From positions 62,001 to 126,000 of the forward strand of contig NZ_WTVK01000002.1 of NCBI RefSeq assembly GCF_012910805.1: 64,000 nucleotides of DNA, written 5' to 3'. How positions within the stretch are numbered: the stretch's first letter is position 1; every line of letters starts with the position of its first letter. The DNA is from Aromatoleum evansii (GTDB lineage Bacteria > Pseudomonadota > Gammaproteobacteria > Burkholderiales > Rhodocyclaceae). Under the pieces are notes generated by a model. The model saw nothing but the letters and a program-made list of their open reading frames with translations. It made no database searches and was not told the origin of the DNA. Below, one piece after another: positions 35,369 through 54,994 of this stretch. A program made the translations under genes and the position numbers.

Positions 35369-36052
35369 TCAGCCCGGTTGCTGCTGCGGCGCGTCGGCGT
35401 TCTTCGCGATCTTCGCCAGCGCGGTCTTGCCCTTCGCGGTGAGGAAGGGCTCGACGAGGAGCTGCAGGCCTTCCTCGACGTATTCGGCGAGGCTGAAACG
35501 GTCGTCGAAGGCCCAGTGCTTGAGCGCCCAGGCGTGGGCGAAATTGACGATCTGGTAGCCGAGCAGATATTCGTTCACCGGCCGCATGAAGCCGCCGGTG
35601 GTGCAGGCGCGGATCGACTTCTCGATCATGCGGTTGGTGCGCGTCTCGCCGTCCTTGATCAGCACGCGCCGGTCGGCGCGCAGGGACTTGGTCGAGCGGT
35701 AGGCGAGCACCGTCGCCTCGCGCTGGGCGTCGACCACCGCGCAGTAGGCCCATACGGCGCGGCACAGGCGCTCGACGGGATGCGTCAGGCCTTCGATCTG
35801 GCGCGGGATTTCCTGCTCGTAGGTGTCGAGCACGTTCTTCAGCGTCAGGAACAGGATGTCGTCCTTGTCGCCGAAGTACTGGTAGATCAGGCCGGTGCTG
35901 ACCTTGGCTTCGCGGGCGATCTGCAGAATCGTCGTGGTGTAGTAGCCCTGCTCGGAAAAGAGCTTGGTGGCCGCACTGATGATCTGGTGACGGCGCTCCT
36001 CGACCAGCTTGGGGTCCGTGACCACGCTTTTGACGCTTTCTGCTGAACTCAT
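35369..36052 (-). CDS. TetR-family regulator, candidate controller of the aryl-CoA cluster
   Basis: The 227-residue protein has a TetR DNA-binding domain (QIISAATKLFSEQGYYTTTILQI, then EAKVSTGLIYQYFGDKDDIL at about residues 20-70) and a helical ligand domain related to FadR/AcrR-type acyl-CoA regulators. It is the last minus-strand gene of the catabolic region. Aromatic-catabolism clusters in this group (for example the 3-methylbenzoate cluster) use TetR proteins that respond to the aryl-CoA. A similar role is inferred here from context and from repeated GAATG-N6-CAYTC palindromes upstream. Confidence 0.85.
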   Translation of the reverse strand: MSSAESVKSVVTDPKLVEERRHQIISAATKLFSEQGYYTTTILQIAREAKVSTGLIYQYFGDKDDILFLTLKNVLDTYEQEIPRQIEGLTHPVERLCRAVWAYCAVVDAQREATVLAYRSTKSLRADRRVLIKDGETRTNRMIEKSIRACTTGGFMRPVNEYLLGYQIVNFAHAWALKHWAFDDRFSLAEYVEEGLQLLVEPFLTAKGKTALAKIAKNADAPQQQPG

Positions 36053-36157
36053 GTCCCTTCCCTCGGGTGAACCGTTGCCACGACGTCCGGCATGGGCCGG
36101 ACGCGCGTATTGTGCCACCGGCGGGGCCGGGTTATCGCGTCGCCGTTGCCCGCGGAC

Positions 36158-36913
36158 TTACTGACGGTTCAGAAAGGCGCGCACGCGTTCCTGCGTATCG
36201 CCGTCCGCGAGCAGGGCCGCGCTGCCGGCGAGTTCGACTTCGTAGCCATCTTCAGCGCCTTCCACGGCAACCGTGATGCAGCGCTTGCATTCGGACAGCG
36301 CCAGCGGCGGCAGGGCGGCGATGCGCGCGACGAGTTGGCGCGTGAAGGTTTCCAGTTCGGCCGCCGGCGCGACCCAGTGTGCGCAGCCGAGCTGCACCGC
36401 GTCCGCGCCGCCGACGACTTCGGCGCCGAGGATCAGGCGCCGGGCGACGGCCTCGCCGCAGATGCGCGTCATGCGCTGCGTGCCGCCCGCGGCCGGGAGC
36501 AGGCCCAGGCGCGCCTCGGGCAGTCCGACCTTGGCGGTGTCGGCGACGACGCGCAGGTCGCACGCGAGCGCGAGTTCGAAGCCGCCGCCCATCGCCGCGC
36601 CGTTGATCTCGGCGACGGTAACCTGGGGCAGGCGTTCCAGGCGCGCATAGATTTCCTGCATCCGGCGGGTGATCGCGATCATGCGCTCGCGCCCGGGCGC
36701 AGTGGCGAACAGCGAGCCGATCAGATCGAGGTCGGCGCCGGCGCAGAACAGGCGCTCGCCGCTGCGGATGTGCAGCACATTCACGTGGCGCAGGGTCTCG
36801 AGCTCGGCGAGGATGCGGTCGAGCTGCTCGATCCATTCCTCGTTGATCGCATTGACCGGTGCGCGGCACAGCGTCATGGTCGCGACCGAATCTTCAATCG
36901 TCAGCGAAATCAT
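36158..36913 (-). CDS. enoyl-CoA hydratase with both catalytic glutamates
   Basis: The 251-residue crotonase has the oxyanion-hole regions GERLFCAGADLDLIG and EINGAAMGGGFELALACDLR. It has both glutamates expected of hydratases: one in GFELAL and one in GLPEARLGLLPAAGGTQR. It could hydrate a cyclic dienoyl-CoA or cyclohexenecarboxyl-CoA (BadK-like) or an open-chain enoyl-CoA after ring cleavage. It starts at the ATG at 36913 with GAGGA upstream. It lies between a second crotonase and the TetR gene, all in one direction. Confidence 0.87.
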   Translation of the reverse strand: MISLTIEDSVATMTLCRAPVNAINEEWIEQLDRILAELETLRHVNVLHIRSGERLFCAGADLDLIGSLFATAPGRERMIAITRRMQEIYARLERLPQVTVAEINGAAMGGGFELALACDLRVVADTAKVGLPEARLGLLPAAGGTQRMTRICGEAVARRLILGAEVVGGADAVQLGCAHWVAPAAELETFTRQLVARIAALPPLALSECKRCITVAVEGAEDGYEVELAGSAALLADGDTQERVRAFLNRQ

Positions 36914-36947
36914 GTGGATGTCCTCGGGAGCTGCAGGCAGGCATGAA

Positions 36948-37010
36948 ACCGTTCGCCCTGAGCCTGTCGAAGGGCAATTGAGAGGCTTCGACAGGCTCAG
37001 CCCGAACGGT
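36948..37010. repeat. inverted repeat of the CCTGTCGAAG type
   Basis: The arms ACCGTTCGCCCTGAGCCTGT and AGGCTCAGCCCGAACGGT face each other around a short A/T-containing centre. Similar hairpins are widespread in beta- and gammaproteobacterial intergenic regions. It lies between two crotonase genes of the same direction and could attenuate or end transcription. It is the only copy I found here. Confidence 0.8.
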
Positions 37011-37201
37011 ATTGGTGCCGGGCTAATCGAAAAAACGGGGCGTCGCCGGCCTCTGCGCACATCGGAGGAGAGTTCGTTGGCTGAACGCACAGGCCGCAGA
37101 CGCGACGCCCCTGGCAAACCGGCCGGCGAAACTGCGCGTCGAACCGACCGTACGGCAAGGCGTGCCGGGCCGCGGGGACGGCCGCCCGGCACGCCGGAAC
37201 C

Positions 37202-38020
37202 TCAGTTGCCCTCGAACTTCGGCACCTGCTTGTTCACGAAGGCGTTGTAGGCGCGCGTGAAGTCCTGCGTCTGCATGCAGATCGCCTGGGCTTCGGCTTC
37301 GGTCTCCAGCGCCTGCTCGATGGTCTGGTTCCATTCCTGGTGCAGGCACTTCTTCGTCATCGAGTGCGCGAAGGCCGGGCCGTTGGCGAGCGACAGCGCC
37401 ATCTCCTGCGCCTTCGCGAGCACCTTCTCGGCCGGCACGAGGTCGTTGTAGTAACCCCACGCGCGCCCCTCCTCCGCGCTCATCGAGCGGCCGGTGTAGA
37501 GCAGCTCGGAGGCACGGCCCTGGCCGATGATGCGCGGCAGGATGCTGCACGCGCCCATGTCGCAGCCGGCCAGTCCCACGCGCACGAACAGGAAGGCCGT
37601 CTTGGCCTTGGGCGTCGCGTAGCGCAGGTCGGAAGCCATCGAGATGATCGCGCCGGCGCCGGCGCAGATGCCGTCCACCGCCGAGATGATGGGCTGCGGG
37701 CAGTTGCGCATCTCCTTCACGAGGTTGCCGGTCATGCGCGTGAAGGTGAGCAGGCCGTTCATGTCCATCTTCGTCAGCGGGCCGATGATGTCATGCACGT
37801 CGCCACCGGAGCAGAAGTTGCCGCCCGCGCCGGTGATCACGACCGCGCGCACGTCCTCGGCGTACTGCAGCTTGATGAAGGTGTCGCGCAGTTCGGCGTA
37901 GCTCTCGAAGGTGAGCGGGTTCTTGCGTTCGGGACGGTTCAGCGTGATGGTCGCGACGCGGTCGGCGACTTCGAACTTGAAGTGTTCCGGACGCCATTCG
38001 GCGGCTTTGAGCTTGTACAT
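37202..38020 (-). CDS. crotonase-fold protein lacking hydratase glutamates
   Basis: The 272-residue product from [14 protein letters not shown] is a crotonase: oxyanion segments [16 protein letters not shown] and [17 protein letters not shown]. The two hydratase glutamate positions are not glutamate; the loop reads [16 protein letters not shown], with an aspartate at 154. Crotonases with an aspartate in this loop include ring-opening hydrolases (BadI), MenB and dehalogenases, so a hydrolase or lyase step is possible. Similar proteins occur in aerobic 2-aminobenzoyl-CoA clusters. AGGAG lies before the ATG at 38020, and a candidate operator lies 35 bases upstream. Confidence 0.8.
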
Positions 38021-38054
38021 GTGATTCTCCTGGAGTTGGTTGCGCTTTGAATTC

Positions 38055-38070
38055 GAATGAACAGTCACTC
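38055..38070. promoter_or_regulatory. candidate TetR operator (GAATG-N6-CACTC)
   Basis: GAATGAACAGTCACTC lies 35 bases before the crotonase gene start at 38020 and overlaps the last codons of the upstream SDR gene. It matches the near-palindrome found at 38924, 46166 and 53343. Confidence 0.5.
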
Positions 38071-38815
38071 AGCCAGCAAGCGTGAGACCGCCGCTGACGC
38101 TGATGACCTGGCCGGTGATGAAGCTGGCGCGATCGCTGGCGAAGAACAGCACGGCGTCGGCGAGCTCGGACGGCTTGGCGAGGCGGCGCATCGGCGTGGC
38201 CTTGATGAAGGCTTCCTGGTGCTTCTCCGGCACCGCGCGCAGCAGCGGCGTGTCGGTCGGGCCGGGGCACACGCAGTTCACGTTGATGTTGTAGCGCGCG
38301 ACCTCGCGGGCGAGCGACTTGGTGAAGGCGATCGCGCCGCCCTTGGCGCCGGAATACACCGTCTCGCCGAGGCTGCCGACGCGGCCGGCATCGCTTGCGA
38401 CGGTGACGATCTTGCCCGAGCCGCGCTCGATCATCTGCTGCAAGAAGGCCTGCGACACGGCAACCGGCCCGAGCAGGTTGAGGTCGATGACCTTGCGCCA
38501 GAAATCGGGCGTGTTCTCCATGAAGGGCTGGATCTTGCCCCAGCCGGCGACGTTGGCGACGACGTCCACCTGGCCATGGCGGCGATAGATCTCGTCGCGG
38601 AAGGCGTGGATGGAGTCGATGTCGGTCACGTCGAGACGCACGAAATCGACGTCGAGGTGGTGCTCTGCGAGCTGACCGGCCGCGGCCGCGCCCTTGGCGT
38701 CGTCGATGTCGCCGATCACGACCTTGGCGCCCGCCCGCGCCAGCGTCTCCGCCGTCGCATGGCCGATCCCCGATGCGCCGCCCGTGACGACGGCCGTTTT
38801 GCCTTGCAGGTTCAT
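38069..38815 (-). CDS. SDR, BadH-like 2-hydroxycyclohexanecarboxyl-CoA dehydrogenase family
   Basis: The 248-residue short-chain dehydrogenase has the NAD-binding TGGASGIGHATAE motif near residue 11. Its catalytic set is a serine in VASDAGRVGSLGE and the YSGAK tyrosine/lysine pair. It closely resembles BadH-type enzymes (VNCVCPGPTDTPLL, FITGQVISVSGGLTLAG), which oxidise 2-hydroxycyclohexane-1-carboxyl-CoA to the 2-oxo form. This suggests a cyclic hydroxyacyl-CoA substrate after ring reduction and hydration. GAGGAGA lies before the ATG at 38815. Confidence 0.82.
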   Translation of the reverse strand: MNLQGKTAVVTGGASGIGHATAETLARAGAKVVIGDIDDAKGAAAAGQLAEHHLDVDFVRLDVTDIDSIHAFRDEIYRRHGQVDVVANVAGWGKIQPFMENTPDFWRKVIDLNLLGPVAVSQAFLQQMIERGSGKIVTVASDAGRVGSLGETVYSGAKGGAIAFTKSLAREVARYNINVNCVCPGPTDTPLLRAVPEKHQEAFIKATPMRRLAKPSELADAVLFFASDRASFITGQVISVSGGLTLAG

Positions 38816-38923
38816 GTCTGTCTCCTCATTCACCAGTCATTCGAGCCAGGGGCATCTTCGCTTCCGCCGCCCCGTTTCCTGTTTGCTGCAGCGTCCCGAG
38901 TCCGGTTCCGTCAGCAGTTGAAT

Positions 38924-38939
38924 GAATGTTCGTTCATTC
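38924..38939. promoter_or_regulatory. candidate TetR operator (GAATG-N6-CATTC)
   Basis: GAATGTTCGTTCATTC has perfect five-base inverted arms and lies about 110 bases before the BadH-like gene, downstream of the frameshifted ligase. The surrounding bases are AT-richer than average for the window (ATAAATCTAG follows). This is the best single copy of the motif. Confidence 0.6.
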
Positions 38940-39056
38940 GATAAATCTAGTCAAGCCCTTTACACAAAATTCCGTCGGGACCGGGGCTTGTGCGGTACGG
39001 ATTGAAGAAGGCGGGATTTCACTTCGCCCTGCCCCCGCCGCGCCTTGAGCGGCTTC

Positions 39057-39155: not shown

Positions 39156-39203
39156 GTCCGTGCGTGTCGGCCGCGGCACGGGCCGACACACGGCCGGAAC
39201 GGC

Positions 39204-40773
39204 CTACAGCCGCCCCGCCTGGAGCAGTTCGCGAATGCGGAATTTCTGGATCTTGCCGGTCGCGGTGCGCGGCAGCTCGTCGACGAAGCGCACCGTGCGC
39301 GGACATTTGTAGATCGAGAGACTCGCCATCAGGGTGTCCTGCACCTGCGATGACAGTCGCGAGTGGCTCGCCGACGGATCCTTCGCCACCGCCACCAGCA
39401 CGAGGCGCGTGAGGCCGTCCTCCTGCGGCACGCCGACGACGACGGCCTCGGCGATGTCCGGCGTCGTCATCGCACAGGCCTCGATCTCGGACGGGCTCAC
39501 CCACTGCCCCGAGATTTTCAGCATGTCGTCGGCGCGACCGTTGTGATACCAGTAGCCGTCGCGGTCGAAGCTGAACATGTCGCCGGGGAAGTACCAGCCG
39601 CCGCGCAGGGACTTCGCCGTCTGTTCGGGCAGCTTCCAGTAGCCGCTGAACTGTGAAGGCGTGCGGATCGCGATCTGCCCGGGCACATCGGGTTCCGTGA
39701 TATCCGCGCCGTCTTCGCCCACCAGTCGCACTTCGGCCCAGGGCACGGGCTTGCCGCAGGAGCCCGGGCGCTGTGCATGGCCTTCATTGACGAGGAAGAG
39801 GAAGATCGTTTCCGACGCCCCGATGCCGTCGACGATGGGCTTGCCCGTCTCTTCGAGCCAGGACTGGTACAGCGTCTCCGGCAGTTTCTCGCCCGCCGAC
39901 AGGAAGTGGCGCACGTGACGGAAGCCCTCGCTTGCGCCCGCGCCTTCGCGCAGCAGGTTGCGGTACATCACGGGCGTGCTGAAGAACAGCGCCGGACGAT
40001 GGGTGTCGACCACGCCGAGGATGCGCACCGGGTCGGGCCATCCCGGTGCCACGACGACCGTCGCGCCGCAGCGCAGCCCGCCCATCAGCGAATGGCCCAG
40101 CGCCCAGCCGAAGAACATCTTGGAGGTCGCGAAGATGCGGTCGCCCGGGCGCACGCCGAAGTATTCGGCCTCCATGCGGTCGGCGATCAGCACGCACGCG
40201 TGCGTGTGCATGACTGCCTTGGGCCGCCCGGTGGTGCCCGACGAATACACCCAGAAGGCGATGTCGTCGGGCGCCGCCGGCGTCGAGGCCAGCGTGTCGG
40301 CCTGCCCGGCGAGGAAGTCCTCGAGCGGCACGCCGCCGGCGCGCGGCGCCGCGCACGACGACCTGCGGCGGGTCGGCGAGCTCGGCGGCGATCTCCTGGT
40401 ACAGATGGGCGAATTCCGCATCGACGAACAGCAGGCAGCAGGCGCTGTCCTCGATCACGTAGCGCACGTCGCGCGGCGCGAGACGAACGTTGAGGGCGAC
40501 CGCAACGGCGCCGATACGCATCGTGCCAAGGTAGGCGGCCACCATCTCGGGCGAATCGTCCATCAGGAAGAGGACGCGTTCGCCGCGCGCGACGCCATGC
40601 GCCTTCATCGCATTGCCGGTGCGATTGACCATCGCCTCGAGTTCGCCATAGGTGACCGGATTGCCGGCGCCGACGATCGCAGGCTGGTCTGCGAGGCCAA
40701 GCGCGAGGGGACGGCCGATGATTTCGTCCGCGGCGTTCATCGCGCCGCAACGTGCGGTGTTGTCAAAACTCAT
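39204..40773 (-). pseudogene. benzoate-CoA ligase family gene with a frameshift
   Basis: The gene (523 codons plus one extra base) encodes an adenylating aryl-CoA ligase, but two frames are needed. The N-terminal part (MSFDNTAR, NAADEIIGRPLALG, through ADPPQVVVRGAA) is in one frame. The rest (AGGVPLEDFLAGQ, YSSGTTGRPKAVMHTH, GWYFPGDMFSFDRDGYWYH, the lysine motif PRTATGKIQKF) is in another. The shift lies in a run of G/C at about 40336-40352 and is explained by one extra base. Either the gene is broken or the sequence has an error; all other motifs look intact. If functional it would activate the aromatic acid taken up by the adjacent TRAP system. Confidence 0.85.
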
Positions 40774-40840: not shown

Positions 40841-41872
40841 TCAATTCGCAAGAAGCGTCCGGGCTTCGGCCAGCAGCTTCTGGCCGTCGTAGCCCTTGGC
40901 GCTGACTTCCTTGACCCAGTCCGCCGCGACCGCCTCGGACGCCTTCTGCCACTTGCCCACCTCGTCGGACGGCACGGTATAGAAGGTGTTCTTGCGGTCG
41001 AGGCCGGCCTGGCGTCCGGTCAGCGTCGCCTCGTCCCACACCCGGCCGGCCCACGCCGACACCTCGGGACCGCTGTTGGCGTCGATGACCTGCTTCAGCT
41101 CCGGCGGCAGGCTGTCGTACTTCGCCGGGTTCATGGCGAGGATGAAGGTCGTTGTCGACATCAGCGGCAACGCGGGGTCGGTCTCGCTGTGATACTTGAC
41201 GACCTCCTGCACCTTCATCGCCGGCACGACCTCCCACGGGATCATCGCGCCGTCGATCACGCCCTTCGCGAGGCTCTCGGTGACCATCGGCACGGGCATC
41301 GGCACCGGGGTGGCGCCGAGCGCCGCGATCATCTTGGTCGCCAGCCGCGTCGGCGCGCGCAGCTTCAGTCCCGCAAGGTCGTCCATCGTCCTGACCTGCT
41401 TCTTCGTCGTGTGCAGCGCCATGCCCGAGATCACGTGGAACACCAGCGGGCGCACGCCCTTGAATTCGGCGGTGGCGTTCTTCGTCGCATAGGTCCATAG
41501 CGCGCGGCTGGACTTCTCGCCCGAGCTGCCCATGAAGGGGAGCTCGAACACCTCGGAGACGAGGAAACGGCCCGCCTGGTAGCCGGGCACTGCCCACACG
41601 ATGTCGGCGACGCCGTCCTTGGCCTGGTCGAAGAGCTGGGCCGGGGTGCCGCCCATCTGCATCGCCGGGTAGATCTGGCACTTCAGGCGTCCGCCCGATT
41701 CGGCGCCGATCTTGGCGCACCAGGGTTCGAGGAACTTGAGTTGCGTGTTCGACGAGGGCGGCAGGAAGTGATGCACGCGCAGCGTCACGACCTTGTCCGA
41801 CTGGGCCTGGGCGGCGCCGCCCGCGAGCAGCAGGGCCGCCAGCAGCGGCTTAAGCAGTTTTCCGGTATTCAT
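40841..41872 (-). CDS. TRAP transporter substrate-binding protein (DctP family)
   Basis: The 343-residue periplasmic protein starts with a signal peptide (cleaved after GGAAQA, about residue 23) and has the DctP pattern: VVTLRVHHFLPPSSNTQLKF, IYPAMQMGGTPAQLFDQ and TPVPMPVPMVTESLAKGVIDG. The arginine of the carboxylate-binding helix is in GLKLRAPTRLATKMI. It would deliver an organic, probably aromatic, acid to the DctQM membrane pair encoded just upstream. GGAGGAGA precedes the ATG at 41872. It precedes the ligase gene. Confidence 0.92.
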   Translation of the reverse strand: MNTGKLLKPLLAALLLAGGAAQAQSDKVVTLRVHHFLPPSSNTQLKFLEPWCAKIGAESGGRLKCQIYPAMQMGGTPAQLFDQAKDGVADIVWAVPGYQAGRFLVSEVFELPFMGSSGEKSSRALWTYATKNATAEFKGVRPLVFHVISGMALHTTKKQVRTMDDLAGLKLRAPTRLATKMIAALGATPVPMPVPMVTESLAKGVIDGAMIPWEVVPAMKVQEVVKYHSETDPALPLMSTTTFILAMNPAKYDSLPPELKQVIDANSGPEVSAWAGRVWDEATLTGRQAGLDRKNTFYTVPSDEVGKWQKASEAVAADWVKEVSAKGYDGQKLLAEARTLLAN

Positions 41873-41911: not shown

Positions 41912-43243
41912 TCAGCCGCCGAAGGTCCGGACCAGATACAGCGTGATGGCGGGAAAGAACAGCAGCAGCGTGATGCGCGCGAGGTCCGATGCCAGGAAGG
42001 GCATCACGCCGCGGAAGGTATCGGTGAGGGGCACGTCCTTCGCGGCCTTGTTGATGATGTAGATGTTCATGCCGACCGGCGGATGCACGAGCCCGATTTC
42101 GACCACCATCAGCACCAGGATGCCGAACCAGATCGACTTCTCGTCCGGCGTCAGGCCCCAGAATTCCAGGCCCATGACCATCGGGTAGAAGATGGGGATG
42201 GTGAGCAGGATCATCGCCAGCGCATCCATCACGCAGCCGAGGAAGACGTAGATCAGCAGGATCGCGGTGAGCACCAGCAGCGGCGACAGGCCGCTGTCCC
42301 GCACCCAGTGCGCGAGCTCGGCGGGCATCTGGGTGAGCGCGAGGCCGGTGTTGAGCATGTCCGCGCCGAGCAGCACGAGGAAGATCATCGCGGTGGCCTC
42401 GGCCGCGCCGAGCACGCTCTCGCGGATGCCTTCGGCGCGCATGCCGCCGCTGACCACCGCGAGGATGCCGCAGGCCGCCGCGCCGATCGAGGCCGCCTCG
42501 GTCGGGTTCGCCCAGCCGCCGTAGATGCCGACGATGACGACGAGGAAGATCAGCGCGACCGGCGTCACCTGGGCGATCGAGCGCAGCTTCTCCGCCAGCG
42601 GCACGCGCGGACCGGCAGGACCGGCCTCGGGCTTGAGGGTGACGATGATGCGGATCACCAGCATGTAACCGATCATCGCGATCAGGCCCGGCAGCACGGC
42701 CGCCATGAAGAGCTTGCCGATCGATTCCTGCGTCAGCACCGCGTAGATCACCAGCGGCACCGAGGGCGGGATCAGGATGCCGAGGGTGCCGCCCGCGGCC
42801 AGCGCCCCGGTCGACAGGGCGCCCGAGTAGTTGCAGCGCTTCAACTCGGGCAGCGCGACCTGGCCCATCGTCGCCGCGGTCGCGAGCGAGGAGCCGCAGA
42901 TCGCGCCGAAGCCCGCACAGGCGCCGGTCGAGGCGATCGCGACGCCGCCGCGCCAGTGCCCGACGAGCGAGCTCACGCAGCGGAACAGCACGCGCGACAG
43001 GCCGCCGTGGGTGGCGAACTGGCCCATCAGCAGGAACATCGGGATGACGGCCAGATCGTAGTTGGAGAGCCGCGCGTAGGCGAGGTTCTTCAGCGTGTTG
43101 AGGAAGGGCGCAATTTCGCCGCCCATCATCGTCAGGTAGCCACCCGCGCCGACGATGAACATCGTGATGCCGATATGCACGCGCAACACCAGCATCACCA
43201 GCAGGATCGCGAACATCGTCGCGCCAATTGCTATGCCGCTCAT
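41912..43243 (-). CDS. TRAP transporter large permease (DctM family)
   Basis: The 443-residue, twelve-helix protein carries the DctM signatures GFGAICGSSLATAATMGQVALPELKR and ALAAGGTLGILIPPSVPLVIYAVLTQ, and a C-terminal VHPPVGMNIYIINK segment. DctM is the ion-coupled channel subunit of tripartite transporters. It overlaps dctQ by four bases and is followed by dctP, giving a complete QMP set in one direction. Confidence 0.95.
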   Translation of the reverse strand: MSGIAIGATMFAILLVMLVLRVHIGITMFIVGAGGYLTMMGGEIAPFLNTLKNLAYARLSNYDLAVIPMFLLMGQFATHGGLSRVLFRCVSSLVGHWRGGVAIASTGACAGFGAICGSSLATAATMGQVALPELKRCNYSGALSTGALAAGGTLGILIPPSVPLVIYAVLTQESIGKLFMAAVLPGLIAMIGYMLVIRIIVTLKPEAGPAGPRVPLAEKLRSIAQVTPVALIFLVVIVGIYGGWANPTEAASIGAAACGILAVVSGGMRAEGIRESVLGAAEATAMIFLVLLGADMLNTGLALTQMPAELAHWVRDSGLSPLLVLTAILLIYVFLGCVMDALAMILLTIPIFYPMVMGLEFWGLTPDEKSIWFGILVLMVVEIGLVHPPVGMNIYIINKAAKDVPLTDTFRGVMPFLASDLARITLLLFFPAITLYLVRTFGG

Positions 43244-43899
43244 TTTTCACCTCCGGCCACGACACGGAAGCGACGGCCCGCGATGTACAGGCTGGTGGTC
43301 GCGAACAGCACGAAGGCCGGCACGATCAGCGCGATCGGCACCCAGCCCGGCCAGCCCAGCATCAGCGAGGCCTCGCCCGATTCGTAGGACGACACGGCGG
43401 CGACGCCGGTGCGCCATGCGACGAGCAACGCGACGCCCCCCATCAGCAGCGCGGCAACGCCGTCGAGGAAGGCGCGCCCGCGCCGCGGCAGCCAGTGGGT
43501 GAAGAAGTCGACGCGCACGTGGCCGTCGACCATCTGGCAGTAGGAGAAGAAGGTCGCCGACGCGACGGCCGCGCCCATCTGCAGCACCTCGAAATCGCCC
43601 GGCACCGGCAGCGAGAAGAGCTTGCGTCCGACGATGGACACCAGCGACATGCCTATCATCAACATGAAGAGGGTGCCGCCCATCAGCGCGGACACCCGGC
43701 TCGCCGCGTACAGGCGCCGGCCCCATGGTCCGTGCGGCAGGGCTTCGGGGTGCGCGACGTGCTCGATCGAGCCGGGTTCGAGCTGGACGCCGGCGTCCTC
43801 ATTCGCACCCTCGCCCTCCCCCCCTTGCGCACCGCACACCTTCGTGGGACGCAATCCTGCCGCGGCGGCCGCGTCCAGGCTCACTACGCTCGTATGCAT
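43240..43899 (-). CDS. TRAP transporter small permease (DctQ family)
   Basis: The 219-residue protein has four membrane helices in its last 150 residues (GGTLFMLMIGMSLVSIVGRK, ATFFSYCQMVDGHVRVDFF, and two more) as in DctQ. The N-terminal 65 residues form a hydrophilic extension not usual for the family. The start at 43899 has CGGAGGAGG upstream, so the extension appears to be translated. It heads the dctQMP genes, 113 bases after the acyl-CoA dehydrogenase gene. Confidence 0.88.
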   Translation of the reverse strand: MHTSVVSLDAAAAAGLRPTKVCGAQGGEGEGANEDAGVQLEPGSIEHVAHPEALPHGPWGRRLYAASRVSALMGGTLFMLMIGMSLVSIVGRKLFSLPVPGDFEVLQMGAAVASATFFSYCQMVDGHVRVDFFTHWLPRRGRAFLDGVAALLMGGVALLVAWRTGVAAVSSYESGEASLMLGWPGWVPIALIVPAFVLFATTSLYIAGRRFRVVAGGEK

Positions 43900-45280: not shown

Positions 45281-46084
45281 TTACATCACCTCGCCGCCCG
45301 ACACCGAGATCGCCTGCCCGGTGACCGCTTCGGAGCCCGGCAGGCACAGCCACAGCACCGCGTTGGCGACCTCTTCCGGGCGCACCAGGCGGCCTTGCGG
45401 GTTGTGCTTCGCCAGCTCGGCGAGCGCGTCGACCTCGCTGCGGCCCGTCTTCTCGCGGATGTTCGCGATCGCATCGCGCACGATGTCGGTGTCGGTGTAG
45501 CCGGGGCACACGGCGTTCACCGTGATGTGCTTGTGCGCCATTTCCAGCGCCAGCGCGCGCGTCAGGCCGATCACGCCATGCTTGGCCGCACAGTAGGCCG
45601 AGACGTAGGGATAGCCCTTCTCGCCCGCGGTGCTGGCGACGTTGATGACGCGGCCCCAGCCGGCGGCGAGCATGCCGGGCAGCGCGGCGCGGGTGGCGAG
45701 GTAGGTGCCGGTGAGGTTCACCTCCAGCATCTGCTGCCACAGCGCGGGCTCGGTGCGCAGGAAGGGCGCGCTGCCGGCCTGGCCCGCGTTGTTGACCAGC
45801 ACCGCGACCGGGCCGAGCGCGCGCGTGGCGGCCGCAAAGGCTGCCTCGACCGAATCCGCGCGGGCAACGTCGACCGCCTCGCAATGCACCTCGATGTCCC
45901 CCTGCCCCGCTTCCGCCCGCAAGGCGGCGGCGCGCTCTTCGAGCTGCCCACGGGTGCGGCCCATCAGCGTCAGGTGCGCACCCTGCGCGGCGGCGGCCGC
46001 GGCGATTGCGGCACCGATGCCGCGGCCGCCGCCGGTGATCACCACGTGTTTGCCAGCGAGTGCGCGATCCAGATCTGCCGCCAT
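45281..46084 (-). CDS. short-chain dehydrogenase/reductase
   Basis: The 267-residue SDR has the [12 protein letters not shown] nucleotide-binding motif, NNAGQAG, a serine in [10 protein letters not shown], and the catalytic YCAAK. It is probably a 3-hydroxyacyl-CoA dehydrogenase acting in the same pathway as the acyl-CoA dehydrogenase 89 bases downstream. The ATG at 46084 is preceded by GGAGG; a longer frame to 46132 is less likely. A candidate operator lies about 85-100 bases upstream. Confidence 0.87.
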
Positions 46085-46165
46085 CACATCCTCCACGTTT
46101 GCTTTTTCTTGCCGGTCGAGCCCGCCGCGCACCGGGGTCCGGATACACCTTGCAGCTCGCTGATG

Positions 46166-46181
46166 GAATAGTCGTTCATTT
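46166..46181. promoter_or_regulatory. candidate TetR operator (GAATA-N6-CATTT)
   Basis: GAATAGTCGTTCATTT lies upstream of the SDR gene at 46084 and resembles the cleaner copies at 38924 and 53343, with one altered base in each arm. It would mark the promoter of the SDR/acyl-CoA dehydrogenase/TRAP unit. Confidence 0.45.
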
Positions 46182-46269: not shown

Positions 46270-47583
46270 TCAGGGCGCACGGTCGCTCAGGGTTTCCGCG
46301 TAGTCCAGGAAGCGCCGGAGTTCCTCGGGCGGAACGAGCGAGCCGCCCGTCGCCCAGATCACGTGCGTCGCGGCGCGCAGGTCGAGTCCGTGCGCGCGCA
46401 CATAGGCCTGACCTTCGGGCGAATCGTGCAGCCAGCCCGGCCCGCCGACGCCCGCCGCCGCGGACGGCTCGACTTCCACGCCCAGCGATCGCTTGAGGGC
46501 GCGCAAGTGAACGTAGAGCCGATCATCGGGAACGGTGAACACACCCGCGAGCTGCGACGCCATCAAGGGGCTGACCAGCGGGGACGCCTGGCCGACGGCG
46601 AGGCCGTCGGCGTCGGTGCGGTTGTCCAGACCGATGTCGTAGACCGAGACGGGCGCGTCGCCCCCCGAGGCCAGCTGCACCAGCATGCACGGCGAGGCGA
46701 CGGGCTCGGCGAAGAAGCAGTGCACATGCTCGCCGAACAAGGCCTTGAGCCCGTAGGTGATACCGCCGGGCGCGCCGCCGACGCCGCAGGGGATGTAGAC
46801 GAGGAGCGGATGCGCGGCGTCCACGACACGGCCGGCGTCGGCAAGCTGTCGGGCGAGGTGACGCGCCGCCGCCGCATAGCCGAAAAAGAGCAGGGCCGAG
46901 CTTTCGTCATCGACGAAGTGGCAGCGCGGCGAAGCCTCGGCCAGCGCGCGCCCCGCCGCCACGGCCTCGGCGTAGTCGCCTGCGTGTTCCACGACGCGCA
47001 CGCCGCGCTTGCGCAGGCGGTCCTTCTTCCACGCCTTGGCATCCGCCGACATATGTACCACCGCGTCGAAGCCGAGCGCCGCCGCCATCACCCCGATGCT
47101 CAGGCCCAAGTTGCCGGTGCTGCCGACCGACACCGTATATTGCGAGAACAGCGTGCGTGCCGCGGGCGTCGCGAGAACGCGGGGATCGCCGTCCGCGGCC
47201 AGGAACCCGTGTTCGAGCGCGACTGATTCGGCGAAAGCGAGCACCTCGTGAAAGCCGCCGCGTGCCTTGATGGAGCCCGCGACCGGCAGCTGGTCGTCGC
47301 GCTTGATGAACCACGCCCCCGCGGCAGCGTCCCTGCCGGCCAGTTCGTCGCGGAGCGCCGCGGCGGGCATCAGCTGGGATTCGATGTGTCCGCCGCTTGG
47401 CGCGAGCTCCGGAAACAGCGTCGCCATGAGCGGCGCAAAGCGCGCGAGACGCGCCTCGGCCGCGGCGATCAGCGGCGTCGCCGGGGCGGAGGCCGGCAGG
47501 GGCTGGCCCAGCCGCGGATTCAACCACAGCAGCGGCCGGCGTGATTGAAGCTGCGCTAATAGCGCCGGGGGGAGAGCGGTCAT
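46270..47583 (-). CDS. dsdA: D-serine dehydratase (D-serine ammonia-lyase)
   Basis: DsdA converts D-serine to pyruvate and ammonia using PLP. The 437-residue product matches the family in length. It has [20 protein letters not shown], whose Lys106 should hold [23 protein letters not shown], the phosphate loop region [20 protein letters not shown], and a C-terminal [15 protein letters not shown]. It is divergent from a LysR gene and sits between the SDR operon and the aryl-CoA reductase genes, to which it has no obvious metabolic link. Confidence 0.93.
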
Positions 47584-47688: not shown

Positions 47689-48648
47689 ATGAAGCTGGAT
47701 TCATCCATCCTCGGGGCGCTGCGCTGCTTCGAAGCGGCGGGGCGCCTGCTGAGCTTCACGAAGGCGGCCGAATCGCTGCACCTCACGCAAAGCGCGGTGA
47801 GCCAGCAGGTTCGCCATCTCGAAGACCGCCTCGGCTACGGGCTGTTCCTGCGCCAGCCGCGCGGCCTGAAACTGACGGCGAAGGGTGAAGCGCTGTTCGA
47901 GACCACGGCGCGCGCGCTGAACGAGATCCAGGACACGATCCGGCGCCTCGGCGAGCCGAACGCGCCCCTGCAGGTCAATTGCCTGCCCTCGTTCGCGCTG
48001 CAATGGCTGATGCCGCGCCTGACGGAGTTCCAGCGCGAGCGGCCCGACGTGTCCGTGCGGCTGAAGGCCGAGTTCGAGACGCTCGACCGACAAGCGATGG
48101 ACGCCCAGGACATCGACGTGGCGGTGCGTTACGACCCGGTCCGCTACAGCCGGCTGCAGGCCGACGTTTTGCTGGACGAGTATCTCTTCGCCGCGGCCAC
48201 GCCGGAGTATCTGGCGCGGCATCCCGGGTTTGCGGCCGGGGAGTCGCCCGACGGCGTCGTGCTGCTGCATGACGCATCGCCGTGGGTCGGTGCGGCCGAA
48301 TTCGTGGAATGGCGCACCTGGCTCGAGGCGTTTCACCCCGCCTGGATCGCGCATCTCGAAGGGCCGCAGTTCAACCTGTCGAGCCTGGCGATCGGCGCGG
48401 CCTTGAGCCACCAGGGCGTGGTGATGGCCCGCTCGGCGCTGGTCCAGGACGAGATCCGGAGCGGACGCCTGATGAACGTGTTCGGCCGGCACGTGCGTGC
48501 GCCGGCGCGCTACGTGCTGCTATCCCGCCGCCCCGACGATCGGCGCGTCGCGATCTTCTCGACCTGGCTGAAGGCGGAGTGCGCGCGCTTCGATGCCGCG
48601 CGAATGGCCTGGCTCTCCCCCGGCGGGGCAGGACATTCGCGCGCATGA
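47689..48648 (+). CDS. LysR-family regulator (GcvA/DsdC-like), probably of dsdA
   Basis: The 319-residue protein has the GcvA-like N-terminus SILGALRCFEAAGRLLSFTKAAESLHLTQ compressed here to its helix-turn-helix (SFTKAAESLHLTQSAVSQQV) and a substrate domain with VNCLPSFALQWLMPRL. It is divergently transcribed from dsdA over a 105-base gap, the usual arrangement for a LysR activator and its target. It is the only plus-strand gene between 35.4 and 64.0 kb. Confidence 0.9.
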   Translation: MKLDSSILGALRCFEAAGRLLSFTKAAESLHLTQSAVSQQVRHLEDRLGYGLFLRQPRGLKLTAKGEALFETTARALNEIQDTIRRLGEPNAPLQVNCLPSFALQWLMPRLTEFQRERPDVSVRLKAEFETLDRQAMDAQDIDVAVRYDPVRYSRLQADVLLDEYLFAAATPEYLARHPGFAAGESPDGVVLLHDASPWVGAAEFVEWRTWLEAFHPAWIAHLEGPQFNLSSLAIGAALSHQGVVMARSALVQDEIRSGRLMNVFGRHVRAPARYVLLSRRPDDRRVAIFSTWLKAECARFDAARMAWLSPGGAGHSRA

Positions 48649-48685: not shown

Positions 48686-49597
48686 TCAGGCCTTGCCGGC
48701 CTGCTTCTGCATCAGCGTGTAGCCGAACAGCGCCGCGCCCAGCGCACCGGCGATCTGGCTGTCGATCCTGGTATCGACGGCCTTGATGCCCAGCAGCTTC
48801 TCGATGCGCTTCACCACGCCCGGGTTCTTGGCGATGCCGCCGGTGATGAAGAACCCCTCCTCCACGCCGATCCGCTCGAGCAGGCTCACCACGCGCTCTG
48901 CCATCGCCTGGCAGTAGGCGGCGATCACCTTGTTCTTGGTGTAGCCGGCCTTGAGCAGCGCCAGCGCCTCGGACTTCGCGAACACGACGCAGATCGACGA
49001 CACCGCTTCCGGCTCCTCATCGACTTCGAAGGAGCGCGGGCCCAGTTCGGCAATGGGGATCTGCATCAGGTCGGAGATGACTTCCATGCCGCGGCCGGTA
49101 CCGGCTGCGCACTTGTCGTTCATCAGGAAGTTCGTGACCTTGCCCTTATCGTCGCAGTGGATGGCCTTGCAGTCCTGGCCGCCCATGTCGAGGATGGTGC
49201 GCACCTTGTTGCCGCCCATGTAGTTCGCGCCGCGGGCATGGCACGCGATCTCGGTGATCGCCTTGTGGGCGAAGGGCACGTTCACACGGCCGTAGCCGGT
49301 ACCGACGACATAGTTGATGTCCTCGAGCTGCATCCCGATCTTGTCCATGATGCCCTGCAGGGCGTTCTTGGCCGAGTCCGGCGAGTTGTTGCCGGTGCGC
49401 ATGCTGTTGTAGCCGTACAGCTCGCCGTCACACACCAGCACCGCCTGCGAGGACACCGAGCCGACGTCGATGCCGCAGGTGATGATCTTGGCGTCCTGCC
49501 AGTTCCTGGTCTCGTCGTACCAGGTGTTTTCCTGCCAGCGCCAGAATTCCTTCTTCTCCGGGGTGGCCAGGCTCACCTTGTCGATTCCTGCATTCAT
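48686..49597 (-). CDS. bzdQ: class I aryl-CoA reductase ATPase subunit, BzdQ-like
   Basis: The 303-residue protein is one of two BadF/BcrAD-type ATPase subunits that couple ATP hydrolysis to low-potential electron transfer into the ring-reducing subunits. It has the phosphate loop CGIDVGSVSSQAVLV after a 38-residue N-terminal extension. Cys163 in MNDKCAAGTGRGMEV and Cys203 in SSICVVFAKSE are the likely ligands of the [4Fe-4S] shared between the two ATPases, and GGIAKNPGVVKRIEKLL follows. The length fits bzd/mbr-type rather than Thauera aromatica bcr-type enzymes. It is last in the four-gene set, 31 bases after bzdP. Confidence 0.9.
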   Translation of the reverse strand: MNAGIDKVSLATPEKKEFWRWQENTWYDETRNWQDAKIITCGIDVGSVSSQAVLVCDGELYGYNSMRTGNNSPDSAKNALQGIMDKIGMQLEDINYVVGTGYGRVNVPFAHKAITEIACHARGANYMGGNKVRTILDMGGQDCKAIHCDDKGKVTNFLMNDKCAAGTGRGMEVISDLMQIPIAELGPRSFEVDEEPEAVSSICVVFAKSEALALLKAGYTKNKVIAAYCQAMAERVVSLLERIGVEEGFFITGGIAKNPGVVKRIEKLLGIKAVDTRIDSQIAGALGAALFGYTLMQKQAGKA

Positions 49598-49628
49598 TTC
49601 ATGTCTCCTCGATTCATGTCCGGTCGGT

Positions 49629-50432
49629 TCAGTGCAGGCGCTCGGCCGCGATCAGCGCGCAGCCCAGCGCGCTGGCGAATTCGGGCAGCTCGGGCAGCAG
49701 CACCTCGTCGACCTCCATCGCGTTCTTGAGCGAAGCGACGAAGCCGGGGTTGTGGCCCATGCCGCCGATCAGCACGACGTTGCCCTCGATGCCGACGCGA
49801 CGCACCATCGCGCACACGCGGCTGGCGACTGCATCGAGCACCGCCTTGGCGATGTCTTCCTTGGGCGTCGAGGAGTGGATCAGCGACACCACCTCGGACT
49901 CCGCGAACACCGTGCATTGCGCGTTCATCGGGATGCTCTTGTCGGAGCGCAGGCTCGCCTCGCCGAACTCCTTGAGCGAGAGCTGCAGCGCGCGGCTCAT
50001 CGCCTCGGCGAAGGAGCCGGCGCCGGCGGCGCACTTCTCGTTGCCGGCGAAGTCGATCGCCTTGCCGTCCGAGTCGGTCTTGATGCCGCGACCTTCCTCG
50101 GCGCCGACGTCCACCACGGTGCGCGCCTGCGGGTACATGTACACCGCGCCGCGCGCCCCGGCGGTCATCTCGGTGACGCCTTCGGTGGCGAAGGCGACCT
50201 GGTTGCGGCCGGCACCGGTGGCGAACACCGATTTCACGTCGCCGCGCGCCACACCCGCCGCCTGCAGCGCGGCGTCGTAGGCCTGCTCGGCCGCCTGGTC
50301 CGCGTCGAGGTCGCCCGGCAGCATCAGGTGCGCCTTCTTCACGACCAGCTGCGGCTTGCCTTCCATGTCGAGCTCCTCGAGCAGCACGACCTTGACGCTG
50401 CGCGAACCCATGTCGATTCCTGCGGTGATCAT
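49629..50432 (-). CDS. bzdP: class I aryl-CoA reductase ATPase subunit, BzdP-like
   Basis: The 267-residue subunit pairs with the BzdQ-like protein. It shows TAGIDMGSRSVKVVLLEE, DVGAEEGRGIK, Cys134 in NEKCAAGAGSF and Cys173 in AQCTVFAESEV as probable cluster ligands, and VVLIGGMGHNPGFVASL. The short length (BcrA of T. aromatica is near 436) supports assignment to the Azoarcus bzd or mbr branch. The gene lies 151 bases after bzdO; GAGGACAG precedes the ATG at 50432. Confidence 0.9.
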   Translation of the reverse strand: MITAGIDMGSRSVKVVLLEELDMEGKPQLVVKKAHLMLPGDLDADQAAEQAYDAALQAAGVARGDVKSVFATGAGRNQVAFATEGVTEMTAGARGAVYMYPQARTVVDVGAEEGRGIKTDSDGKAIDFAGNEKCAAGAGSFAEAMSRALQLSLKEFGEASLRSDKSIPMNAQCTVFAESEVVSLIHSSTPKEDIAKAVLDAVASRVCAMVRRVGIEGNVVLIGGMGHNPGFVASLKNAMEVDEVLLPELPEFASALGCALIAAERLH

Positions 50433-50583
50433 GTTTCTGTCCTCATCTTGTTGGCACTGCTTGTGCGTGTTGTACGGGCGCGCCGGTGCGGGTGAACTCC
50501 CTCCCCTTCAAGGGGAGGAACAAGGTGCCCCGCCTGACTCATGACTTCGATTGCCGCGCCGCTCTCTGCTGGTTTTGGGGGGA

Positions 50584-51894
50584 TCAGGCCGCCAGCTTGC
50601 GCAAGCCCAGCTGCTCCATGAAGGCATCCACACGCGCCTGCGTGCGCACCTCGTCGAACTCGCGCTCGTCGCCCATGTTGCCCTCGTAGGTCATGATCGG
50701 AATGCCGGCCTTGGCCATCGCCTGGCGGTTTTCCATGATGCCGACCGAGAGGCCTTCGCAGCCGCGGTTGAGGTGCATCATGCAGCCGTCGACACCCCAG
50801 TCGCGCGCGATGTCGAGCATCATCCGGGACTTCACCGAGGGGTCGAAGAACTGCTGCCACAGCGGCTTCGAGAGGTTCCAGTCGGCATACAGGCGCAGCG
50901 CCGTGTCGCGGTCCTTCATCTCGATGCCCTTCTCCCACGGCACGGTGCGCGCGCCCCAGGAGCCGTCGTCCTTGTACTCCCACGTGCCTTCGAGGCCGAA
51001 GGTGTAGAGCGAGCCGATCGACACCGCGCCGTAGCTCTCGAGATAGCGGAAGATCTTGAGGAAGGGCCACGGCGGCTGCGTGTCGGACATCAGACGGCAG
51101 CGCTCGTTGGCCACCGCGGCGATGCCGCGCGCGACGCGGTCCTTCACCTCGTCGTACAGCTCGTCCATGAAGTCCGCGCACCACTGCGAGGATTTGTGCA
51201 GGATGCACAGCACATACAGCGAGTACATCGTCTTCTCGTCGAGCGGCGCGGGCCGCGCCTTCTGCAGCTCGCAGATCTGCGCCCAGCGGCTGGTCGAGCG
51301 CATCTCGTTCCTGATCGCGCGGATCAGCAGCTCGTCGTCGCACTTGCGCCCGGTCGCCTTCTCGACGAACTCGATCGAATCGTGCAGCTGGCTCGTGACG
51401 TAGTCGAGGCGCTCGGGCGTGAGGTCCTTGTACGCGCCGACCGACACGTCGACATATAAGTCGGGGATCTTCTTCACGTGCGCGACGTGCTGGTACCACT
51501 TCGCGTGCGAGCAGCAGATCTGCGTCTGGAAGATGAAGTCCGAGGTCGGCCACTTGCCGCCGTAGAAGTATTCATCCAGGTGCATGCTGCCCCAGTAGAT
51601 GCGCATGTAGGAGCACATGTCGCGGGCGAAGCCGTAGGACTCGGCGGCGTCGAGGCAGCGCTGGGTGAACTTCTTGTCGAGCGACACGCCGGCCGAATAC
51701 GGCTCGCCAGTCAGCGGATAGACGTCGTCGCCGAGCGAGGTCGGGATCGCGTCGAAGGACCAGCCCGCCGCGGACCAGCGGATGCCGCCGTTTTCCTTGG
51801 CGCGGGCGTAGTTGTGGTAGTACTGCTCGCGCAGCTGCTTGGCCTTGCCCCACAGCTTGAGCTGTTCGGTCGGGTAGATCGCCTTGGTGTCCAT
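50584..51894 (-). CDS. bzdO: class I aryl-CoA reductase subunit, BzdO/BcrB-like
   Basis: The 436-residue protein belongs to the 2-hydroxyacyl-CoA dehydratase-like fold and, with BzdN, binds the aryl-CoA and an Fe-S cluster for ring reduction. Features include [31 protein letters not shown], and [20 protein letters not shown]. Cysteines at 80, 94 and in the ICC pair are candidates for cluster ligands. CAGGAGA precedes the ATG at 51894. It follows bzdN after 165 bases in which no gene was recognised. Confidence 0.9.
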
Positions 51895-52059
51895 CTCATG
51901 TCTCCTGTCGGGCTCAGAGCTTGCGAATAAATCTGCTGCGCGGGTCGATTGCTGCGTTGCTCACTCGCTCACTCCTCGCCTATCCATCTGATATGTCTCG
52001 TCGTTCGCTCGCTCGCGCCTTGCACTCGACCCTGCTCGCGACGATTTCTTCACAAGCTC

Positions 52060-53199
52060 TCAGAACAGTTCTTCTTCGCTCAGCGTCTCGAGCATCGCCT
52101 CGATGCGGATACGGAACGGGCCGATCGGGTTGGTGATGTCGAATTCGAGGAACAGCGTCGGGATGCCGTTGGCCTCGAGGTGGCGCTTCAGGTCCGGGTA
52201 GTCGCCCTCGTGCGGATCGCAGAACTTCTGCTGCAGGAAGACAGCCGCCTGCACCTTGTATTCCTTGGCGAGATCCAGCACGTGCTGGAAACGCGTGTGC
52301 GACGGGTAATCCTTGGTCGGGCAGGCCGGGCGGTCGCAGTAGCGCTCGGCGATCGCCTTGACGACGTCGTCGTCGTTCTTCGACGCGTTCCAGAAGTAGC
52401 GCGTGCCGGAGCACTGGTCGTCGATGACGATGGTGGCGCCGACCGACTCGACCATCGCCATGAAGGCCACGTCGTCGTTCTCCGAACCGATGGTCATGAA
52501 GCGCGCGCCCGTCGGCCGCGTCACCTCACGCTTGGGCAGCGCGGCGAGCACCTTACGCAGCATCTCGTTGTGTTCGCGCTTGTCGATGAACTGCGCGGTG
52601 ATCGACGCGTACAGCGCCTCGACGCCGGTGACCCTGGGCTCGTCGGCCTTGCGGTAGTCGAACAGCTGGCGCAGCAGGCGGCGGTTCTCGTCCATCACCG
52701 CGAGCGCCTCGCGCAGCATGTCGTCGGTGATCGTCTTGCCGGTGAGCGTCTGCAGGAACACGCGGAACGCCTGCACTTCGGCGCGGTGCGCCTTGCGCGA
52801 ATGCGGCGACTGCACGTCGTTGGGCATCGCGACGTAGTAGTCCCACTTCACGGTGGGCACGTTCTGGCGCCAGGAGCTGTAGGCCTGGCGGTACTGGATG
52901 CAGGACTGGGTCAGGGTCACGCCTTCGGCGTAGTCGAAGCGGCCCAGCAGGCCCTGCGCCAGCGAGTCGCGGCAGAACGGGCAGAACATGCCGAAGATGT
53001 GCGGCTCGGTCACGTTCTGCGGCTCGTGCGCGCCGAGCACGCGCACCGGCAGCATGCCGGCCGCGATCAGCAGCTCTTCCGGCGTGTAGGTGCACATCGT
53101 TGCGACTACCTGGCCGCCAGTGCGCGCCTTCCACGCGCGGGCGTAGTCATGGCGCTTCTCGTACCACTCCTTGAACTGGTCAAACAATCCGTCGTTCAT
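52060..53199 (-). CDS. bzdN: class I aryl-CoA reductase subunit, BzdN/BcrC-like
   Basis: The 379-residue subunit is the second member of the substrate-binding pair. It starts MNDGLFDQFKEWYEKRHDYA with AAGGAGA upstream. It has Cys36 (ATMCTYTPEELL) and the CPFC pair at 73-76, then VFLQQKFCDPHEGDYPDLKR and FLEFDITNPIGPFRIRIEA near the end. These match 2-hydroxyacyl-CoA dehydratase/benzoyl-CoA reductase families. It is the first gene of the N-O-P-Q set. Two candidate operators lie about 150 and 200 bases upstream. Substrate specificity within benzoyl- or substituted benzoyl-CoA cannot be read from sequence. Confidence 0.9.
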   Translation of the reverse strand: MNDGLFDQFKEWYEKRHDYARAWKARTGGQVVATMCTYTPEELLIAAGMLPVRVLGAHEPQNVTEPHIFGMFCPFCRDSLAQGLLGRFDYAEGVTLTQSCIQYRQAYSSWRQNVPTVKWDYYVAMPNDVQSPHSRKAHRAEVQAFRVFLQTLTGKTITDDMLREALAVMDENRRLLRQLFDYRKADEPRVTGVEALYASITAQFIDKREHNEMLRKVLAALPKREVTRPTGARFMTIGSENDDVAFMAMVESVGATIVIDDQCSGTRYFWNASKNDDDVVKAIAERYCDRPACPTKDYPSHTRFQHVLDLAKEYKVQAAVFLQQKFCDPHEGDYPDLKRHLEANGIPTLFLEFDITNPIGPFRIRIEAMLETLSEEELF

Positions 53200-53342
53200 G
53201 AATCCGTCTCCTTGTAATTGCCCCGCGCGCTCCGGGCCATCCGGGCCATCCGCCCTGTCGGGGAGCCTTTCCGGCCAAATCCTTCCAATCCCCATCCGGT
53301 CCTGCCTTCGCTCCAGTCTGTTTGATGTCCATCAACTGACTG

Positions 53343-53408
53343 AATGTTCGTTCACTCTACATCCGGATTTTCACGAAATCAAGAGATGAATGAACAATTA
53401 TTCATTCG
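53343..53408. promoter_or_regulatory. pair of candidate TetR operators upstream of bzdN
   Basis: Two near-palindromes lie 48 bases apart centre to centre. GAATGTTCGTTCACTC is at 53343-53358, and GAATGAACAATTATTCATTC at 53389-53408 has seven-base perfect arms. The stretch is richer in A and T than its surroundings and is the only plausible promoter region for the reductase genes. Confidence 0.6.
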
Positions 53409-54982: not shown

Positions 54983-54994
54983 AAGCGCGTCACG

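Follow-up and report, generated by a model that had tools for sequence, protein, structure and literature searches.

Which aromatic acid does a bzd-type (class I) aryl-CoA reductase serve when its genes lie apart from the usual benzoate pathway genes, and which of its subunits settles that choice? The question is raised by a gene cluster at positions 35369-53408 of a 64,000-nucleotide stretch of Aromatoleum evansii DNA (hereafter the window), part of contig C221 in a draft genome of 5.94 Mb. Few metabolic reactions are as demanding as the biological Birch reduction. For its ring specificity, the solved structure of the BzdNO unit accounts for benzoyl-CoA only; the differences seen here among natural sequences implicate one subunit and, within it, one short segment. 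From gene content and order, operator-like sites, orthology, subunit histories and fixed residues, all of which were observed directly, we conclude that the region is probably an hbd cluster for the anaerobic degradation of 3-hydroxybenzoate, in which subunit O is the defining part and subunits N, P and Q, like the electron supply, are generic. Clusters of the hbd type are already known, and the findings on variation among their subunits are newer.

Two reductase clusters in one genome

Gene calling and family scans located, on the minus strand of this region, every gene that a first-pass annotation of the sequence had named there: four reductase subunits with a tripartite ATP-independent periplasmic (TRAP) transporter, an aryl-CoA ligase, an acyl-CoA dehydrogenase, two short-chain dehydrogenases/reductases (SDRs), two crotonases and a TetR regulator. 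That list had left out a D-serine ammonia-lyase-like gene and a plus-strand LysR gene, and the ligase gene proved to be split. Read along the minus strand from 53.2 to 35.4 kb, the order is N, O, P, Q, the ammonia-lyase-like gene, an SDR, the acyl-CoA dehydrogenase and the small, large and binding genes of the TRAP transporter, followed by the ligase, a BadH-like SDR, the two crotonases and TetR. The features are as follows.

53386..53405, plus strand: HbdR-type operator upstream of the subunit N gene (1 mismatch to the consensus)
52060..53199, minus strand: hbdN-type reductase subunit N (TIGR03190, 847 bits, cut-off 454)
50584..51894, minus strand: hbdO-type reductase subunit O, proposed specificity subunit (TIGR03191, 959 bits, cut-off 449)
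51754..51771, minus strand: pocket segment AAGWSF of O, codons 42-47 (BzdO residues 43-48)
49629..50432, minus strand: reductase subunit P, electron-activating ATPase module (PF01869)
48686..49597, minus strand: reductase subunit Q (TIGR03192, 661 bits, cut-off 380)
47689..48648, plus strand: LysR-type regulator gene
46270..47427, minus strand: D-serine ammonia-lyase-like gene (PRK02991)
46160..46179, plus strand: weak operator-like site upstream of the SDR gene (4 mismatches)
45281..46084, minus strand: SDR dehydrogenase in the hbdE position (Pfam)
44013..45191, minus strand: acyl-CoA dehydrogenase
43240..43899, minus strand: TRAP transporter small permease DctQ
41912..43243, minus strand: TRAP transporter large permease DctM
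40841..41872, minus strand: TRAP transporter solute-binding protein DctP
39204..40773, minus strand: 3-hydroxybenzoate-CoA ligase HbdA in two frames, junction near 40352-40354
38918..38941, plus strand: overlapping pair of HbdR-type sites in front of the BadH-like SDR gene (2 and 3 mismatches)
38069..38815, minus strand: BadH-like SDR dehydrogenase in the hbdH position (254 bits, under the BadH cut-off of 431)
37202..38020, minus strand: crotonase-family enzyme (PRK08258)
36158..36913, minus strand: second crotonase-family enzyme
35369..36025, minus strand: TetR-family regulator in the HbdR position (the gene caller puts its start at 36025)

All four bzd-type subunits lie inside the cluster; N, O and Q pass the curated bzd models and the iron-sulphur cysteines of O are kept. 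The Bcr models were not passed (BcrB 54 bits against 487, BcrC 138 against 421, BcrA and BcrD under their cut-offs). Ferredoxin, 2-oxoacid:ferredoxin oxidoreductase and the dch, had and oah genes had been reported as unseen, which is true locally. A second reductase cluster, for which the first-pass annotation had proposed a genome search, was found on contig C262, and it is a canonical bzd cluster. Its N, O and Q score above the bzd model cut-offs (O with 954 bits on the family model that gives 959 for the window O), and its had (618 bits) and oah (649 bits) exceed curated cut-offs. Its ligase passes the family model for benzoate-CoA ligases, and its regulator matches the model for the regulator of anaerobic benzoate use. 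It also holds a dch gene assigned by position and a Pfam enoyl-CoA hydratase match, a small 4Fe-4S protein as candidate ferredoxin (22.8 bits, just below the Pfam cut-off) and a BzdV-like NAD(P)H flavoprotein with flavin and iron-sulphur domains; the search for 2-oxoacid:ferredoxin oxidoreductase was limited to the window's cluster. It is thus only at the hbd cluster that had, oah and electron-supply genes are missing. Between the two reductases of this genome, protein identity is 87% for N, 75% for O, 90% for P and 95% for Q.

Related genomes carry the same pair of clusters (G denotes genomes, L stretches and g genera). Among 17 genomes of the genus, the window's own included, 15 have both an hbd-type and a bzd-type O, one has the bzd type only and one has neither; identity to the window O is 93-100% for the hbd type and 75-77% for the bzd type. 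One of them, G008, combines the same hbd cluster with a bzd O identical over 430/430 residues to BzdO of Aromatoleum sp. CIB (PDB 8s02). The backbone of N-O, SDR, acyl-CoA dehydrogenase, TRAP, ligase, SDR, crotonases and TetR recurs, as far as the stretches reach, in 14 of the 15 genus loci, the locus of G015 ending after O and hence not being readable further. The gene order is not due to chance, because it recurs, with differences, in 13 other genomes of the genus. Variable parts are P-Q, a GNAT gene, the ammonia-lyase gene (present in 4 of the 14 readable hbd loci) and, in five loci, an extra gene after the ligase. The GNAT gene is found in 11 of the 14 readable loci, where the window has LysR; LysR itself was seen in two of the 14 (the window and L124), where GNAT is missing. 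The extra gene of L129-L133, 396-398 codons long and read in the opposite direction, lies between the ligase and the BadH-like SDR, and that of L131 had no NCBIfam match at E 1e-40.

A 2024 paper reportedly described the hbd cluster of Aromatoleum sp. CIB, including its TetR repressor HbdR and the palindromic operator. According to a published account, A. aromaticum EbN1 breaks down 3-hydroxybenzoate without oxygen, using a TRAP transporter and dearomatising the ring reductively (PMC9765128). The window shares with the CIB cluster and with the EbN1 pathway the ligase, TRAP transporter, bzd-type reductase, SDRs, acyl-CoA dehydrogenase and TetR with palindromic operator; it differs in its split ligase, LysR in place of GNAT (as in G010), the D-serine ammonia-lyase-like gene and the weak operator before the first SDR. 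In such a pathway, 3-hydroxybenzoate would be imported by the TRAP transporter, activated by HbdA and reduced as 3-hydroxybenzoyl-CoA to 3-hydroxydienoyl-CoA by the catalytic N-O and ATP-driven P-Q subunits, and the SDRs, crotonases and acyl-CoA dehydrogenase would carry on a modified beta-oxidation.

The ring pocket of subunit O

In the structure of BzdNO with benzoyl-CoA, the ring is bound in BzdO with Trp46 in its surroundings, and the cluster water, Glu65 and Ser44-OG are 3.6-4.0 A away from ring C3 (PMC11971306). The comparison of fixed columns set 27 hbd O sequences against 34 bzd O, one Bacillota row having been dropped beforehand, and 17 hbd N sequences against 33 bzd N, with two Bacillota rows and G164 dropped. 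Thirteen columns of O have no residue shared between the two sides, and six of these are fixed on both; among the 17 and 33 rows of N there was no such column, and restoring G164 could only reduce the count. The six fixed changes fall at BzdO positions 43, 44, 45, 47 and 48, around the constant Trp46, and at 346 (BzdO numbering is the window O number plus 1, in agreement with the alignment). Ser44 is replaced by Ala in 27/27 hbd O, and further changes are Ala45 to Gly, Leu48 to Phe, Gln346 to Leu and Ile305 to Thr or Ala. All 61 rows retain the three cluster cysteines, Glu65, His131, Trp46, Tyr97, Gln274, Tyr298 and Leu302. The window reductase has the subunit types of BzdNOPQ (PDB 8s02, 8s1t and 8s2r for BzdNO) and these kept residues, but its O, just 75% identical to the bzd O of its own genome, has a rebuilt segment 43-48.

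The pocket residues of the window O differ from those of all 34 bzd O compared. The segment AAGWSF was present in 35 collected gene-call records, corresponding to 29 genomes after de-duplication, every one with an hbd-type O, and GSAWAL was present in 72 other O among the collected gene calls. Eight further O have other pocket letters, including the bzd O of G086 (two records, L054 and L235), which is not one of the 34 compared; position 48 alone is not diagnostic, because this protein has Phe48. As a pair, AAGWSF and GSAWAL provide a sequence mark that separates the 3-hydroxybenzoate-type from the benzoate-type O; the curated model gives these two kinds nearly equal scores. We propose that O makes the enzyme specific for 3-hydroxybenzoyl-CoA through this rebuilt pocket, with Ser44 to Ala, Ala45 to Gly and Leu48 to Phe around a retained Trp46. 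Losing the Ser44 hydroxyl together with the change of Ala45 to Gly would leave room for the 3-OH of the substrate at C3, beside the catalytic Glu65.

The history of this pocket was read differently by different trees. A quick tree gave a single clade of hbd O (support 97), whereas in a careful tree with a Bacillota outgroup one clade appeared in 12% of bootstraps, and the careful tree without outgroup set the hbd O of genus g11 beside the bzd O of g11 and Oxalobacteraceae (100/99). One clade was not rejected with all columns (p 0.085), but was rejected (p 0.004) when the 13 signature columns, chosen post hoc, were removed. The g11 hbd O is a mosaic: its residues 29-58 are 85% identical to the hbd O of Aromatoleum and g2 and 56% to g11-type bzd O, and toward its ends this relation reverses. 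The careful tree and the second test would suit separate origins of the g11 and the Aromatoleum/g2 proteins from benzoate O, with convergence on the same pocket. We hold this scenario, which is compatible with O being the specificity subunit, to be possible without favoring it: the quick tree gives one clade, the test on all columns does not reject it, and the mosaic is equally well explained by an ancestral hbd O recombining with local bzd O. Either recombination retained the pocket or the pocket arose twice, and both scenarios place selection on it.

Loss and copying of the other subunits

At strict cut-offs, bzd-type O was detected in 61 of 395 genomes of the family, and the O loci of 37 of these were examined; the other 24 have one O each and no HbdA match. 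An hbd-type O is present in 29 genomes of four genera (15 Aromatoleum, 6 g2, 7 g11 and 1 g7), in loci that contain O-N-P-Q, O-N or O alone. Three of the 29 loci (G015, G131, G330) are undecided because their contigs end just after O or inside P. Among the 26 decidable loci, intact P-Q is found in 12, all Aromatoleum, and 14 are without it. N-O without P-Q was seen in the g7 genome, four g2 genomes (two with N cut by a contig end) and two Aromatoleum genomes: G017 (N in two frames), G164 and G086 are of this kind, as are G216 and G299 with the cut N, G006, a single contig with merely a 33-residue remnant of Q, and G004, with a truncated and frame-shifted Q. O stands alone in 7/7 g11 genomes. 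Selection on this lone O is purifying (median dN/dS 0.11), and in all seven loci an operator-like site with 0-2 mismatches lies 22-131 nt upstream of its gene. Six g11 genomes have both O types; searched throughout, each proved to hold one N of >70% and one Q of >80% identity, G026 having distant (<40%) homologues in addition. No hbd locus examined had an hbd-type N, P or Q without O.

Where both clusters have the genes, P and Q bear signs of copying between them. Comparison of hbd and bzd copies within genomes (15 for N and for O, 12 for P and for Q, 11 for GNAT) gave identities of 87-90% for N, 74-78% for O, 71-77% for GNAT, 89-100% for P and 93-100% for Q. In G002, the hbd and bzd clusters encode P and Q proteins of 100% identity, compared with 90% for N and 78% for O, and its fourfold-degenerate sites are 99-100% identical in P and Q versus 57-74% in N, O and GNAT; over G001, G002, G003 and G009 together the ranges are 92-100% and 57-76%. 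Sliding windows across these four genomes show identity jumping at the O/P boundary and dropping after Q; in four other pairs, that of the window's genome included, the rise is partial and chiefly in Q. In DNA trees, the hbd/bzd label changes once each for N, O (100/100) and GNAT (82/66), five times for P and eight times for Q; for these last two, trees with one clade per cluster were rejected (p 6e-49 and p 5e-5, respectively). N too seems to have been copied between clusters, because the hbd N of G164 is nested among the bzd N of g2 (100/99, protein tree). The sameness of P and Q was also considered as an assembly artefact; it is present in G003, assembled as 1 contig, and in G002, assembled as 3. 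A recent duplication of the whole cluster in the window strain was rejected, N and O of the two clusters diverging before the sampled genomes of the genus.

This pattern of loss and copying suggests that O has to be particular and that N, P, Q and the electron supply are shareable. We infer from these sequences that O sets the choice of substrate and can borrow the other subunits, which, in many relatives, only the bzd cluster could supply together with electrons. HadBC, the 2-hydroxyacyl-CoA dehydratase, has an activator separate from its catalytic dimer, as does the window reductase; O resembles HadB and N resembles HadC, but the reaction is different and the similarity weak (112 and 135 bits). 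Shareable P-Q fits the prediction (PMC11971306) that P-Q and N-O of bzd-type enzymes associate just transiently. Functional hybrids of HbdO with BzdN and BzdPQ are predicted. The wider proposition is that class I reductases are modular, with one O per substrate under the regulation of its own pathway and with N-P-Q and electron supply shared from bzd, that a six-residue pocket sets the substrate, whose 3-OH replaces the Ser44 hydroxyl, and that repeated copying homogenizes the shared parts; we judge the chances for and against it to be even. Our literature search, which covered few subscription papers, found nothing on O-only or shared-subunit benzoyl-CoA reductases and is thus weak evidence of novelty.

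A self-sufficient HbdNOPQ, of which the smaller loci would be decaying forms or remnants and the sameness of P-Q incidental recombination, would agree with the retention of all four genes in 12 of 15 Aromatoleum loci and with the truncated Q of G004, which is decay. It appears improbable in view of the O-only loci of seven g11 genomes, with their purifying selection and nearby operator, the N-O loci of g2 and g7, and the copying of P-Q in several lineages.

Operators, ligase and the substrate

We scanned for HbdR-type operators with the consensus, allowing up to 3 mismatches, and obtained four matches in the window against 0.03 expected: a single one ahead of N, an overlapping pair ahead of the BadH-like SDR gene and one at 56967 without a nearby gene start. 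A TetR gene and operator-like sites at catabolic promoters are thus present. The N site has 1 mismatch and the sdrH site 2, whereas sdrE is preceded only by the 4-mismatch site. At least one site occurs in 29 of 31 hbd stretches (counting G131 and G216 twice each and including one G063 stretch without a reductase gene), compared with 0 of 21 bzd stretches and none in 578,886 shuffled bases; both site-less hbd stretches are short contigs. In a later set, the site was found in 1/1 hbd and 0/8 bzd stretches. In G216, whose hbd-type O is on a separate contig, hbd genes adjoin the bzd cluster, and an HbdR-type site with 3 mismatches lies just upstream of the N gene of that bzd cluster (L229, position 9942). 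The benzoate reductase of G216 may, judging by this site, be controlled by HbdR.

The window ligase lies in two frames, the first 140 codons at 40773-40354 and the remainder at 40352-39207, and its piece scores 754 bits over positions 144-522 of the curated HbdA model, covering only part of the model because the gene is split. Its intact ortholog in L122 passes that model (1042 bits, cut-off 1000) and the reading frame is open in 14/14 other genus genomes with the gene, the split being a draft error or a recent lesion. HbdA was found at strict cut-offs in 34 of the 395 family genomes.

Several points weigh against a specificity-determining O with shared partners. The 29 loci were selected by their hbd-type O, so that its constant presence is not a free result; the fixed-column count was limited to O and N, the intermixed P and Q being excluded; and the pocket mark is blurred by the bzd O of G086 with its Phe48 and by six further O with other letters. 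In G331, a g11 genome 83% complete, neither N nor Q was found at E 1e-60. No site was found within 450 nt upstream of N in L129-L133, five of the 15 Aromatoleum loci. The two bzd stretches scanned from hbd-bearing g11 genomes, L215 and L217, have no site either, which leaves the production of N-P-Q on 3-hydroxybenzoate alone unaccounted for. The window ligase is split or mis-sequenced, and an hbd-type O is missing from seven of the 34 genomes with HbdA: G063, G294 and G335 (g48) and G130, all without any bzd-type O, G128 with a bzd O only, and the incomplete G350 and G368 (53 and 79%). In G063 (L161, L218), hbd genes occur without a bzd-type reductase and a distant class I reductase set lies elsewhere in the genome, as such a set does in G130; it may serve 3-hydroxybenzoyl-CoA in G063.

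Benzoyl-CoA is also an effector of HbdR, the N, P and Q of the window are near those of the benzoate enzyme and the two O score alike (959 and 954 bits), as would be expected of a second benzoate enzyme, an isoform acting on benzoyl-CoA under other conditions. We give this reading very little weight, as the ligase is HbdA-type, the ring pocket of O is different in 27/27 rows, and EbN1 regulates its 3-hydroxybenzoate pathway specifically, with some exceptions at the transcript level (PMC9765128). Another ring-substituted benzoate (3-methyl-, amino- or dihydroxybenzoate) as the true substrate is just as doubtful, even if family models cannot prove a substrate and an Ala44/Gly45 pocket could admit other meta groups, given that the solved methylbenzoyl-CoA reductase is of a distant type (MbdO 51 and MbdN 97 bits versus BzdO 802 and BzdN 782), that the ligase model is HbdA and that EbN1 is reported to take the TRAP and reductive route on 3-hydroxybenzoate (PMC9765128).

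The first-pass annotation had proposed a substituted-benzoate pathway, and its hydroxybenzoate option is borne out by the HbdA-type ligase, the HbdR-type operator sites and the EbN1 route (PMC9765128). Its other options fared less well: the MbdO score speaks against methylbenzoate, no curated model of a cyclohexanecarboxyl-CoA route was passed, and aminobenzoate is not supported, no aminobenzoyl-CoA monooxygenase match being found among the 20 window open reading frames at 35-57 kb with a library that may lack the model. Three of these frames matched nothing and are probably not genes. There was likewise no sign of the suspected composite with aerobic 2-aminobenzoyl-CoA genes, the adjacent aerobic block being a box cluster. 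This block (benzoyl-CoA epoxidase) adjoins the hbd cluster at 54066-63961 and continues in stretch L010; it includes a benzoate-CoA ligase at 60982-62571 and a semialdehyde dehydrogenase piece at 63323-63961 that falls short of the curated cut-off. L010, just outside the window, holds BoxC and BoxB together with a BzdR/BoxR-like regulator.

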